A stretch of DNA of 64,000 nt from Paenacidovorax monticola (GTDB taxonomy: Bacteria; Pseudomonadota; Gammaproteobacteria; Burkholderiales; Burkholderiaceae_C), in the NCBI RefSeq assembly GCF_014489595.1, contig NZ_CP060790.1, positions 4,588,001-4,652,000 on the forward strand. Direction: 5' to 3'. Below are positions 46,936 through 56,539 of the stretch, piece after piece. The first letter of the stretch is position 1, and every line of letters starts with the position of its first letter. Under the pieces are notes generated by a model. It was not told the DNA's origin. It saw only the letters and a program-made list of their open reading frames with translations, and searched no databases. Both the position numbers and the translations under genes were made by a program.

Positions 46936-47892
46936 CTACGGCGCCACCGCGTTCACTGGCCTGCCCGCGACGAACGCTTCCACGTTGTCGATCAACTGGT
47001 CCGCCAGCGCCTGGATGGCTTCGGCGCTGGCCCAGGCCACGTGGGGCGTCAGGATGAAGTTGGGCCGCTCCAGCAAGGCCGTGAAGGGGTGATTGGCGGG
47101 CGGCGGTTCCACGCTGGTCACGTCGAACGCGGCGCCGCTGATATGCCCCGCATCCAGTGCCGGGCCCACGGCCGATTCGTCCACCAAGCCGCCGCGCGCG
47201 GTATTGATGAGCAAGGGGCGGCGCGCCATTTGCGCAAACTCGGGCGCAGCGATCATGTTGCGCGTGTCGGCGTTCAGGGGGCAGTGCAAGGTGAGCATGT
47301 CGGCCTGCCGCAGTGTTTCCTCGAACGGCGTGTACATGCTGCCTTGGTCGGTGCGGCCCTTGTGGCCCGACATCAGCACTCGCATGCCCAGCGCCCGGCC
47401 CATGGCGGCCACGGCCTGGCCCAGCGCTCCGTCGCCAATCACGCCCAGCGTGGAGCCTGCCAGGTCGCGGATGGGGTGGTCGAAAAAGCAGAACTGCGCC
47501 GTCTGCTGCCACCGGCCCGCGCGCACCGCGTCACGGTAGGCGCAGATGCTGCGCCGCAGGGCGAAGATGAGCGCGAAGGTGTGCTCCGGCACCGTGTGGG
47601 TGGCGTAGTTGCGCACGTTGCTGACCACGATGCCCCGCGCCTGGCAGGCGGCCAGGTCGATGTTGTCGGTGCCTGTCGCGGCCACGGCGACCAGCCGCAG
47701 GCGCGGAGCCTGGGCGAGCACATCGGCGGGCAGCTTGACCTTGTTGACGATGGCCACATCGGCATCGCGCAGCCGGTCTGCGGCTTCGGCGGGGCTGGTC
47801 CGGGGGTATTCCACCCATTCGTGGTCGAACGCGGGCCGGCGCACGCGGGTCTGCGGGGAAATGGTTTCGCGGTCGAGAAAGACGATCTTCAT
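46936..47892 (-). CDS. D-2-hydroxyacid dehydrogenase (glycerate/hydroxypyruvate type)
   Basis: The 318-aa protein is an NAD-dependent D-2-hydroxyacid dehydrogenase of the glycerate dehydrogenase/hydroxypyruvate reductase group. The Rossmann motif is GVIGDGALGQAVAAMG. The catalytic Arg is in NTARGGLVDESAVG, the Glu in FDVTSVEPPP and the His in ILTPHVAWAS. It follows the full-length transketolase gene by 14 bp on the same strand and is probably co-transcribed. This pairing suggests hydroxypyruvate, a transketolase donor, as a substrate; that link is an inference. The start at 47892 (MKIVFLDRE) is family-consistent. Confidence 0.87.
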   Translation of the reverse strand: MKIVFLDRETISPQTRVRRPAFDHEWVEYPRTSPAEAADRLRDADVAIVNKVKLPADVLAQAPRLRLVAVAATGTDNIDLAACQARGIVVSNVRNYATHTVPEHTFALIFALRRSICAYRDAVRAGRWQQTAQFCFFDHPIRDLAGSTLGVIGDGALGQAVAAMGRALGMRVLMSGHKGRTDQGSMYTPFEETLRQADMLTLHCPLNADTRNMIAAPEFAQMARRPLLINTARGGLVDESAVGPALDAGHISGAAFDVTSVEPPPANHPFTALLERPNFILTPHVAWASAEAIQALADQLIDNVEAFVAGRPVNAVAP

Positions 47893-47906
47893 GGCAAACC
47901 TTGTTT

Positions 47907-49887
47907 TCAAGCGGCCAGCAGGCGGCGCGCTTCGGCTGCCACGGCCTCGGGGTGATGTCGAACAATTTGTACAGGGCCTCGGCCGGGCCGGATGCGCCAA
48001 AGCCTGTCATGCCTACGAAGCCACCGCGCTCGCCCAGGTAGGCGTCCCAGCCAAGGCGGCAGGCGGCCTCTACGCCGACGCGCACGCCGGTGCCCAATAC
48101 CTCCCGGCGGTAGGCCGCGTCCTGCTGGTCGAACAGTTCCCAGCAGGGCAGGGAGACGACGGCCGTGCCGGTGCCGCCTTGTTCCAGCATCTCGCGCGCG
48201 GCCAGCGCCAGCGCCACCTCGGAGCCGGTGGCCAGCAGCGTGACTTGGCGCGGGCCGCAGGCCGCCTCGCGCAGCACGTAGCCGCCGCGCGCGCTCTGGT
48301 TGGCTGGGGTGTGCGTCTGGCGCACGAGGGGCAGGGTCTGCCGCGCGAAGACCAGGCTCACGGGCCCGAGGCATGGGCCATGGCGGTTTCCCAGCACTCG
48401 GCCGCCTCGACCGCGTCGGCGGGCCGCATCACCAGCATGTTGGGCATGGCGCGCAGCGAGGCGAGGATTTCCACGGGTTGGTGCGTGGGACCGTTCTTGC
48501 CGATGCCGATGGAGTCGTGGCTGAACACGAACTTGACCGGCAGCCCCATGAGCGCGGCCATGCGCATGGCGGGGCGCTCGTAGTCCGAGAACGCCAGGTA
48601 GGTGACGGACAGCGGCACGACGCCGCCGTGTGCGGCCATGCCGTTGGCCATGCCGCCCATGAGGTGCTCGCGCACGCCGCAGTGCACGTAGGCGCCCGAG
48701 CGGTCCGTGGCCGTGAACGCGGCCAGGCCGCGCTTGTGGCTGGTGGGCGCCTCCAGGTCGGCGCAGCCCACCATGCGCTCGGGTATCACTGGCGCAAGCA
48801 GCGCGTTGATCTCGGCCGAGAGGAGGATGCCGCCGGTTTCCTGCGGCGAAGCTACAGCGCGCTGCTTGTAATCGTGCAACACCTGCTGCCAGCCGGCGGG
48901 CAGTTCGCCGTTCATGACGCGGCGGAATTCCCGGCGCTCGGCTTCCGGTAGCGCATCCAGGCGGCGCTGCCATGCGGCATGCGCTTCGGTGCTGCGCTGG
49001 CCGGCCGCGCGCCAGGCATCCAGCACGGGGGCGGGCACATCGAACGGGCCGTGGGGCCAGTCCAGCCGCTCACGGGCCTCCTGAGCGTCCTGCTCGTAGA
49101 GGCGGGCGCTGTGGCCGCCGCGCTGGCCTTCGAGGCGCGGAATGCCCTTGGCAATGATGGTGCGGCAGGCGATGAGGGACGGGCGCTCGTCCCGGCGCGC
49201 GAGCGTGAGCGCGGCGGACACAGCGTCGATGTCATGGCCGTCCACTTCGACGACATGCCATTGAGCGACGCGGAAGCGCTCGGCCACGTCCTCGCTGATG
49301 GATAGCTGAGTGCTGCCGTCGTCGGTGATGCGGTTGTCGTCCCACAGCAGGACCAGCTTGCCCAGGCGCAGATGGCCGGCCAGGGAGATCATTTCCTGGC
49401 CGATGCCTTCCTGCAGGCAGCCGTCGCCGACGAAGGCGTAAGTGAAGTGGTCCACCAGGGCGCTGCCGAAGCGGGCGTTGAGATAGGCCTCGGCCACCGC
49501 CATGCCGAAGGCATTGGCGATGCCCTGGCCCAGCGGCCCCGTCGTGACCTCGATGCCGTGCGCCGGGTTGCGCTCGGGGTGGCCTTCGCAGTGCGAGCCC
49601 AGTTCGCGGAAGCGCTGGATCTGGTCGAGGCTGATGGGCCCGTAGCCGCTCAGGTGCAGCAGGGCGTACAGCAGCATCGAGCCGTGGCCGTTGGAGAGCA
49701 CCACGCGGTCGCGGTCCCACCAGGTCGGGTCGGCCGGGTGGTGCTTCAGGTGCTGTGTGTAGAGGGCCGTGGCGATTTCGGCCATGCCCAGCGGAACGCC
49801 CTGGTGGCCTTCGGCGGCACGCACGATGGCGTCGATGGATAGAAAGCGGATGGCATGCGCCAGGGGCTGCAGCGGGTGTGCGCTCAT
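47907..49887 (-). CDS. Transketolase, full-length, two frameshifts
   Basis: About 660 aa when repaired. The N-terminal TPP domain has GHQGVPLGMAEIATALYTQH, LSNGHGSMLLYALLHLSGY, GPLGQGIANAFGMAVAE and the GDGCLQEGIGQEM motif with N in WDDNRIT. The pyrimidine-binding domain has YVHCGVREHLMGGMANGMAA and IGKNGPTHQPVEILASLRAMPN. The first break is at 48362-48364 (one base missing in GGGCCC after MAHASGP) and joins VSLVFARQTLPLVRQ. The second, at 47949-47952 (C4 run), joins LFDITPEAVAAEARRLLAA. It differs from ordinary TktA in its short N-terminal loop and its place in an inducible locus. Confidence 0.86.
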
Positions 49888-55520: not shown

Positions 55521-55534
55521 GCCAGGGAGAGACC

Positions 55535-56539
55535 ATGAACACCGCAACGCAGAAGAAACCGCGCCTGACCACCTCGGCCATGATCGCCTCCATCGCCGAC
55601 GAGGGCCAGCGCGTCAAGGCCGCGCCTTTCGGCAAGGCCCTGGTCGAATACGCCGCCACACACCCCGAGGTCGTCGGCATGACGGCCGACCTGGCCAAGT
55701 ACACCGACCTGCACCTCTTCGCGCAGGCCTACCCCGAGCGCTTCTTTCAGATGGGCATGGCCGAGCAGCTCCTGATGGGCGCGGCGGGCGGCATGGCCAA
55801 GGCGGGCCTGGTGCCCTTTGCCACCACCTATGCCGTGTTCGGGACGCGGCGCGCCTACGACTTCATCCACCAGGTGATCGCCGAGGAAAACCTCAACGTC
55901 AAGATCTGCTGCGCGCTGCCGGGCCTGACCACGGGCTACGGCCCCAGCCACCAGGCCACCGAGGATCTGGCGATGATGCGCGCCATTCCCGGCCTCACGG
56001 TGGTGGACCCCTGCGATGCGCTGGACATCGAGCAGGCCGTGCCGCAGATCGCCGCGCACGATGGCCCCGTCTATATGCGCCTGCTGCGCGGCAGCGTGCC
56101 CCTGGTGCTGGACGAGTACGACTACCGCTTCGAGCTGGGCAAGGCCCAGCGGCTGCGCGATGGCGCGGACGTGCTCGTGATCTCCAGCGGCCTGATGACC
56201 ATGCGTGCGCTGGAGGCGGCCAAGCAGCTGGAGAAGGACAAGGTTGGCGTGGCTGTGCTGCACTGCCCGACGATCAAACCGCTGGATGCGGCCACCATCC
56301 TGGCCGAAGCGCGCCGCCCGGGGCGTCTCGTGGTGGTGGCAGAGAACCACTCCACCGTGGGTGGCCTTGGCGAGGCGGTAGCCGGCCTGCTGCTGCAAGA
56401 GGGCGTGGCGCCCGCGCGCTTTCGCATGCTGGCGCTGCCGGATGCCTTCCTCGACGCTGGGGCACTGCCCACTCTGCACGACCGCTACGGTATCTCCACC
56501 GCGAAGGTGGTGCAATCGCTCAAGGCATGGCTGGCCTGA
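55535..56539 (+). CDS. Split transketolase, C-terminal (pyrimidine-binding) subunit
   Basis: The 334-aa partner of the gene at 54693. It carries the pyrimidine domain (FQMGMAEQLLMGAAGGMAKAGLVPFATTYAVF, with the catalytic glutamate of GMAEQ) and PGLTTGYGPSHQATEDLAMM, followed by a C-terminal transketolase domain (ADVLVISSGLMTMRALEAAK, VVVAENHSTVGGLGEAVAG). Together the two chains give an active TPP enzyme for two-carbon ketol transfer. Its stop overlaps the end of the convergent mltB gene by 20 bp. The donor/acceptor sugars are unknown. Confidence 0.9.
   Translation: MNTATQKKPRLTTSAMIASIADEGQRVKAAPFGKALVEYAATHPEVVGMTADLAKYTDLHLFAQAYPERFFQMGMAEQLLMGAAGGMAKAGLVPFATTYAVFGTRRAYDFIHQVIAEENLNVKICCALPGLTTGYGPSHQATEDLAMMRAIPGLTVVDPCDALDIEQAVPQIAAHDGPVYMRLLRGSVPLVLDEYDYRFELGKAQRLRDGADVLVISSGLMTMRALEAAKQLEKDKVGVAVLHCPTIKPLDAATILAEARRPGRLVVVAENHSTVGGLGEAVAGLLLQEGVAPARFRMLALPDAFLDAGALPTLHDRYGISTAKVVQSLKAWLA

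Follow-up and report, generated by a model that had tools for sequence, protein, structure and literature searches.

What would a bacterium degrade with a gene set that joins two transketolases to an importer of organic acids and holds no sugar kinase? The question is raised by positions 46936 to 56539 of a 64,000-nucleotide stretch of the Paenacidovorax monticola genome (assembly GCF_014489595.1, contig NZ_CP060790.1, positions 4,588,001 to 4,652,000), which we call the window. A preliminary description of this locus, made from the sequence, had listed a tripartite ATP-independent periplasmic (TRAP) transporter, a short-chain dehydrogenase/reductase (SDR), a split transketolase, a D-2-hydroxyacid dehydrogenase (HADH) and one LysR-type regulator, and NCBIfam and Pfam matches bear out all of these. 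It had also remarked that no sugar kinase was in view, and indeed none was found among the ten locus proteins scanned with the same two collections. Here, we describe changes in the phosphate pocket and in the catalytic histidines of the split transketolase, TktN/TktC, that are new to this analysis, as judged from aligned residues, and we find that the genes around it recur together in many relatives. From the clamp loss in both transketolases and the absence of a sugar kinase from the gene set we infer a kinase-free ketol-transfer route, and we regard it as an evenly balanced proposition that the locus is an inducible sugar-acid catabolic module working largely without sugar phosphates.

The transketolase pockets

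The split transketolase is encoded on the plus strand by TktN (54693 to 55520), the thiamine-diphosphate chain with the Pfam domain Transketolase_N, and TktC (55535 to 56539), the pyrimidine and C-terminal chain with Transket_pyr and Transketolase_C, whose residues are numbered on the 335-residue translation from 55532. Across the two chains PF00456, PF02779 and PF02780 all score over their cut-offs. We compared the pocket with that of the closest split enzyme of known structure (6yak, 6yaj) and of human transketolase, and followed it through an alignment of relatives at least 68% identical (117 rows, 114 distinct); the E. coli and human residue numbers used here were assigned from our alignments. 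In TktN, Tyr29 replaces H26 and Ser102 replaces H100 (E. coli numbers), both in 117 of 117 rows. TktC has Ala30 for R358, Tyr57 for S385, Tyr100 for F434, Leu129 for H461 and Arg186 for R520, and Y57, Y100, L129, R186 and H140 (H473) are invariant throughout the alignment. Position 30 is Ala in 99 rows, Ser in 8, Pro in 8, Gly in 1 and Val in 1, with Arg in 0 of 117, and it is these counts, together with the pairwise alignment to 6yaj (R36 opposite A30), on which the loss of R358 rests. The phosphate-orienting motif R-S-F-H-R hence reads x-Y-Y-L-R in every row. The loop that carries D469 is one residue shorter and the aspartate is gone; because the loop tyrosine falls opposite D469 or E468 depending on the alignment, we claim only the loss of Asp and not a D469Y exchange. 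Altogether, out of the canonical R358, S385, H461, R520, H26, H100 and D469, only R520 is kept.

The catalytic glutamate and the cofactor residues are retained (TktC E78, TktN D147 and N177, 117/117), as are the H66, H261 and H473 positions. The genome, a single 4.68-Mb contig, encodes a separate housekeeping-type transketolase in an open frame (516 bits, 752 codons), so that the transketolases of the locus are extra to it; this housekeeping enzyme is canonical at H26, H100, S385, H461, D469 and R520. Paralogous split transketolases are mixed, with Tyr at the H26 position in 3 of 11 and Ser at the H100 position in 2 of 11, and two of them (L068 and L069) share Tyr57 and Tyr100 with TktC.

The altered positions are known from work on other transketolases. 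RSFHR orients the phosphate in ordinary transketolases, and the sulfofructose enzyme has RAFDR in its place, as given in the excerpt of PMC11659671 that we used. In the part of PMC3657141 consulted, H461 is tied to phosphate binding, and H26Y and D469Y reverse the stereoselectivity of E. coli transketolase, H26Y alone being cited there as turning the enzyme to the R product with 88% enantiomeric excess. According to an extract of PMC10787763, from which we also take the meaning of variants at S385, H100, R358 and R520, E. coli variants at S385, D469 and H100 accept non-phosphorylated aldehydes that the wild type refuses. Since H26Y reverses the stereoselectivity of the E. coli enzyme, TktN/TktC may prefer 3R ketols; that is, their stereopreference may be inverted, 3R instead of 3S.

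The second transketolase, TktA (47907 to 49887, minus strand; assigned by family matches and frame comparison), had been described as full-length, which we have to correct: in the assembly it is not one open frame and contains two frame breaks. Its homology spans three frames, frame A ending at a stop at 48358, a second reaching to about 47945-47950 and a third ending at 47907, with the frame changes near 48361-48367 and 47945-47950. Intact copies exist in other sequences, the nearest being 660 residues long and 99% identical over the searched part. The breaks may be an assembly error or a strain-specific decay, as the sequence fits either. A second interrupted gene is found elsewhere in the genome, where an L-threonate dehydrogenase match (4112497 to 4113372) has one in-frame TGA; the two interruptions may point to assembly errors. 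TktA relatives keep H26, H66, H100, H261, H461 and H473 in 27 of 27 sequences, carry Asn for D469 (27/27), and have Lys, Arg or Thr at the E468 position (16, 10 and 1, respectively). R358 is replaced by Ile, Met or Leu and a deletion runs over S385 in 28 of 28 rows, one split-chain row included. Judged by these residues, the clamp for sugar phosphates is mostly or partly gone from TktN/TktC and TktA alike.

Conservation of the locus

Is the association of these genes peculiar to this genome? The gene-neighbourhood survey that the preliminary description had proposed finds the set conserved elsewhere. Among 200 genomes searched within the family, 45 had a TktN match at E <= 1e-40 and 33, the source genome included, had one at 67% identity or more; of the 33 loci, 29 were examined, 3 others on very short contigs were left out and 1 is the window itself. 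A wider scan of named genomes added the best 80 of at least 579 confirmed relatives, and the resulting 109 loci, chosen by TktN similarity only, came to 106 after removal of 3 duplicates. Neighbours were counted at identity thresholds (at least 52% for SDR, at least 34% for LysR), and the counts are lower bounds because many contigs end early. TktN (by construction) and TktC occur in 106 of 106 loci, SDR in 94, LysR in 88 and a TRAP large permease in 86, 71 of them of the window's kind and 15 of another kind. The complete core of LysR, SDR, TRAP large permease, TktN and TktC is present in 77 of 106. In a contrast set of 11 loci whose sole split transketolase is a paralogue (TktN 38-48% identical), SDR was found at 52% or more in 1 of 11 and DctP, the TRAP substrate-binding protein, at 48% or more in 0 of 11, a comparison with the 77 of 106 that rules out chance clustering of the module genes. 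The locus is thus a real, recurrent and conserved catabolic module. The two transketolases do not form one fixed set, as had been supposed: TktA is found in 26 of the 106 loci and HADH in 13, each time with TktA (13/13). Both are therefore optional, and together they are a second arm of the module.

Among 72,556 plasmid records, 203 carry a member of the TktN family at E <= 1e-40, 189 of them at 60% identity or more; the carriers among the matches listed are mostly Pantoea and rhizobia. Of 5,426 E. coli genomes, 5 have it. In a class-wide survey at E <= 1e-80 it turned up in 2 genomes out of 369, one of them the source genome, so that its occurrence outside the bacterial family is patchy. One Caballeronia locus (L150) holds two neighbouring module copies with different partners. 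The sister split transketolases L068/L069 and L070/L071 adjoin other ABC transporters and dehydrogenases, those next to L068 being iron-type alcohol dehydrogenase-like and acyl-CoA-type genes, judged from the starts of their sequences; these sister enzymes are probably further subfamilies.

Layout, uptake and regulation

The locus consists of two divergent transcription units, LysR, TktA and HADH on the minus strand and SDR, DctP, DctQ, DctM, TktN and TktC on the plus strand. HADH (46936 to 47892) matches Pfam 2-Hacid_dh and 2-Hacid_dh_C and is probably a hydroxypyruvate/glyoxylate reductase; its best NCBIfam matches are the 2-hydroxyacid dehydrogenases PRK06487 and PRK06932, both under cut-off. 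Its R233, E262 and H284, which we take to be the catalytic triad, are invariant in 5 aligned sequences. An open reading frame at 45636-46922, resembling in sequence a branched-chain-type ABC substrate-binding protein, reads towards the HADH gene.

On the plus strand, SDR (51059 to 51823), identified in NCBIfam and Pfam scans, has 7krk/7krm as its nearest solved structure at 319 bits, the next best reaching 164. It is followed by DctP (51855 to 52850), the small permease DctQ (52914 to 53414; Pfam DctQ) and the large permease DctM (53411 to 54670; Pfam DctM, TIGR00786 at 412 bits). DctP was assigned by family scans, and its R154, R175 and N215 are kept in 76 of 76 relatives and match R152, R173 and N213 of 4P47; with three TRAP proteins and this Arg/Arg/Asn site, the system has the features of a TRAP carboxylate transporter. 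The nearest solved relatives of DctP are 4p9k/4pak, 4p47, 4pdh and 4pdd. In the portion of PMC11668362 at hand, from which the carboxylate-binding roles of the Arg/Arg/Asn residues are taken, the liganded rest of the related structure set held pantoate or erythronate, and its authors caution that the ligands may not be native. Where loci do not have the TRAP transporter, major facilitator superfamily proteins stand in that are related to the metabolite/H+ symporter and D-galactonate transporter families. Both the conserved carboxylate site and these replacements, which are of sugar-acid and organic-anion types, speak for the earlier proposal that an acid enters by TRAP.

The regulator (50031 to 50918, minus strand) is of the GcvA/DsdC kind, scoring 264 bits with the GcvA model against a cut-off of 288, and its GTG start was set at 50918 by comparison with relatives. 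Between LysR and SDR, DNA alignment of 8 loci reveals a conserved footprint (50942 to 50992) with a TTGC-N3-GCAA-like element at 50942 and a TGAGTTTATATCGTTTG block that ends at 50992 and is identical in 8 of 8 loci, hand-picked among close relatives. A 29-bp near-perfect palindrome, read from the sequence in the gap that separates the stop of LysR from the start of TktA (49990 to 50018), is a candidate operator or terminator. A pattern search between LysR and SDR in 6 relatives turned up no equal of the palindrome, which we set aside as the operator; the conserved elements lie at 50942-50992.

A proposed pathway for free sugar acids

The pathway that we propose starts from what is read in the sequence, namely gene content, conservation and residues, and assigns conditionally a substrate class, an SDR reaction, an acceptor, a stereochemistry and roles for HADH and TktA. 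A free sugar acid of about C4-C6 would be imported by the TRAP transporter, and SDR, the proposed maker of the ketol-acid donor, would oxidise the carbinol adjoining the terminal CH2OH to give HOCH2-CO-CHOH(-R)-COO-. TktN/TktC would then remove the HOCH2-CO unit, leaving a short oxo-acid (tartronate semialdehyde, hydroxypyruvate or glyoxylate), and pass the ketol unit to an acceptor that probably carries no phosphate. HADH, where present, would reduce the oxo-acid, most usefully hydroxypyruvate to D-glycerate, which a glycerate 2-kinase, adjacent in some relatives and located elsewhere in the source genome, would feed into glycolysis. TktA would be a second, also phosphate-clamp-poor, ketol-transfer enzyme. 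A role of SDR in the pathway, already suggested in the preliminary description, is supported by its standing as the commonest partner of the split transketolase.

Several observations in relatives fit this scheme. Besides the major facilitator substitutes, a ribose-type ABC system takes the place of TRAP in one locus (L097), where it and an SMP-30-type lactonase flank the core, and L140, L144 and L148 have a threonate-dehydrogenase-like protein but no SDR; these transporters, the lactonase and the stand-ins for SDR point to a sugar acid as the substrate class. A glycerate-2-kinase-like gene adjoins 5 of the 106 modules, directly after TktC in L079, L080, L081 and L084 and in the order TktA, HADH, glycerate-2-kinase-like gene in L085, which suggests D-glycerate as a product and fits the handling of hydroxypyruvate or glycerate by HADH as first proposed. 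The piece in L085 scores 93.1 bits with Pfam DUF4147 against a cut-off of 23. In the source genome, genes for glycerate kinase, glyoxylate carboligase and tartronate-semialdehyde reductase lie close together at 4.353-4.359 Mb, so that glyoxylate, tartronate semialdehyde and hydroxypyruvate would all be usable.

Other points weigh against the scheme. With TktA and HADH confined to 26 and 13 of 106 loci, most modules manage without them, and TktA is broken in this genome's copy. The number of modules with an adjoining glycerate-2-kinase-like gene is small (5/106), and the NCBIfam models that these proteins match, archaeal glycerate 2-kinase, are reached only under cut-off (235.8 of 550 and 161.9 of 670 bits). 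A dihydroxyacetone-type kinase near 4 loci implies that some relatives phosphorylate a product. With R520 (R186) and H473 (H140) still in place, TktN/TktC could retain some binding of phosphate, and the new residues could also replace the lost phosphate clamp.

Which donor would be cleaved? We consider it possible, if doubtful, that the substrate is branched or a pentonate, the donor being 3-oxo-isoapionate, which leaves hydroxypyruvate directly, or 4-oxo-pentonate, which leaves tartronate semialdehyde. Either donor would best explain HADH and the glycerate kinase, and the lactonase and ribose-type transporter of L097 are in line with such a substrate, as is an insert in L064, L128 and L141, where a TIM barrel of the AP_endonuc_2 kind is joined by a dihydroxyacetone-type kinase and an RpiB-type isomerase; no apiose or apionate enzyme was identified, however, and the TIM barrel is without an NCBIfam match near cut-off. 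Among the 106 loci the TIM barrel occurs in 6, the kinase in 4 and the isomerase in 4. TIM-barrel and kinase genes lie in or next to the module in L064, L128, L141 and L166, the first three adding the RpiB-type isomerase, and in the PDB only 5tnv matches the barrel, at 32 bits. The insert of L064, L128 and L141 resembles L-erythrulose routes, and an erythrulose branch is possible.

It is unlikely, in our estimate, that only the donor side has changed and that TktN/TktC, like the enzymes of the sulfofructose and apulose-phosphate routes, make xylulose 5-phosphate by joining the ketol of a keto acid to glyceraldehyde 3-phosphate. The invariance of R186 and H140 in 117 of 117 rows would suit such a phosphate-linked reaction, and the sulfofructose transketolase passes its ketol to glyceraldehyde 3-phosphate despite the change from RSFHR to RAFDR (in the excerpt of PMC11659671). 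However, RAFDR retains both arginines, whereas in TktC the R358, S385 and H461 positions are all changed, and TktA likewise is without R358 and S385.

We attach a similarly low probability to a C4 version, in which a tetronate (erythronate or threonate) is oxidised at C3 to 3-oxo-tetronate and the transketolase frees glyoxylate for HADH or a glyoxylate carboligase route. The nearest solved relatives of DctP come from the set that held pantoate or erythronate (the cited portion of PMC11668362), and 22 of 106 modules have an L-threonate-dehydrogenase-like gene next to them (scores of 327.6 and 213.3 bits, the cut-off being 350). Against this, an L-threonate dehydrogenase match that clears its cut-off (474.8 bits) lies elsewhere in the genome, 1 kb from a DUF1537-type kinase, and would make the module redundant for L-threonate. 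L-threonate is therefore an unlikely substrate of the module, though the dehydrogenase match contains the internal TGA mentioned above. That TktN/TktC are not ketol transferases at all, the loss of H100 having opened them to acyloin reactions with a donor without a C1 hydroxyl, for example pyruvate or a methyl ketol acid, is very improbable: H100 is Ser in 117 of 117 rows and the pyruvate-accepting E. coli variants include H100L (extract of PMC10787763), but Ser is polar and small, unlike Leu, and the H66, H261 and H473 positions are kept.

Returning to the sugar-acid module, we speculate, tentatively and with less than even confidence, that it represents a widespread non-phosphorylative pathway in which a stereo-inverted (3R), clamp-free transketolase moves a ketol from a free keto-aldonate to a free acceptor, in some species with a second, clamp-poor transketolase, and carbon enters metabolism via D-glycerate. 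Such proteins sit in databases simply as 'transketolase', an enzyme of the pentose-phosphate pathway. If this pathway is real, many annotated transketolases would instead cut free sugar acids, perhaps with opposite stereochemistry, and many annotations would have to be corrected; rhizobia, enterics and freshwater and soil betaproteobacteria would gain a new sugar-acid pathway, and biocatalysis would gain natural enzymes with the changes so far engineered into E. coli transketolase.

Comparison with known systems

Our search of the PMC literature, which leaves subscription journals mostly outside, found none among the papers listed that describes the module gene set. The consulted part of PMC3333776 reports two transketolases of Rhizobium leguminosarum (RL2718-19) next to an arabinogalactan-induced CUT2 transporter; what we used of PMC12780249 and PMC11103875 has no bearing on the module. 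A precedent for catabolism by a transketolase whose head-group pocket is altered is the sulfofructose enzyme SqwGH, which resembles TktN/TktC in being a two-chain transketolase in a dedicated catabolic cluster, in taking its ketol from a substrate whose head group is not a phosphate and in its altered motif (RAFDR). The motif of the locus is x-Y-Y-L-R in 117 of 117 rows and not RAFDR, and its transketolase genes follow those for SDR and a TRAP carboxylate importer; the difference in motif leads us to reject a sulfo-sugar route. Sulfoquinovose and sulfoerythrulose isomerases were not seen among the locus open reading frames in general family scans, in which no search was aimed at them.

Carter et al. 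(2018) reportedly described D-apiose and D-apionate pathways with an apulose-4-phosphate transketolase, AptAB. This is likewise a split transketolase in a catabolic route for a plant sugar, set beside TktN/TktC here by description and not by sequence, but AptAB acts on the product of a kinase, whereas the core of the locus has no kinase and its transketolase has lost most of the phosphate clamp. An L-threonate and D-erythronate route with a DUF1537 kinase is said to have been described by Zhang et al. (2016). It shares with the module a TRAP-type uptake and the dehydrogenation of a C4 acid, and threonate-dehydrogenase-like neighbours occur in 22 of 106 relatives; the module, however, is without a DUF1537 kinase, the two PF07005 matches of the genome lying at 4.114 and 4.124 Mb, about 0.5 Mb off.

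The nearest solved relative of both chains is the split transketolase of Carboxydothermus hydrogenoformans (6yaj/6yak, 239 and 207 bits), which keeps His at H26, H100 and H461, Ser at S385, Arg at R358 and the GED loop, while TktN/TktC do not. A further likeness in the pocket is to engineered E. coli transketolase (S385Y, D469T/Y, H100L, H26Y), in which the same positions are changed and H26Y and S385Y are identical. Those variants are laboratory-made, whereas the changes in TktN/TktC are fixed in 117 of 117 natural sequences.

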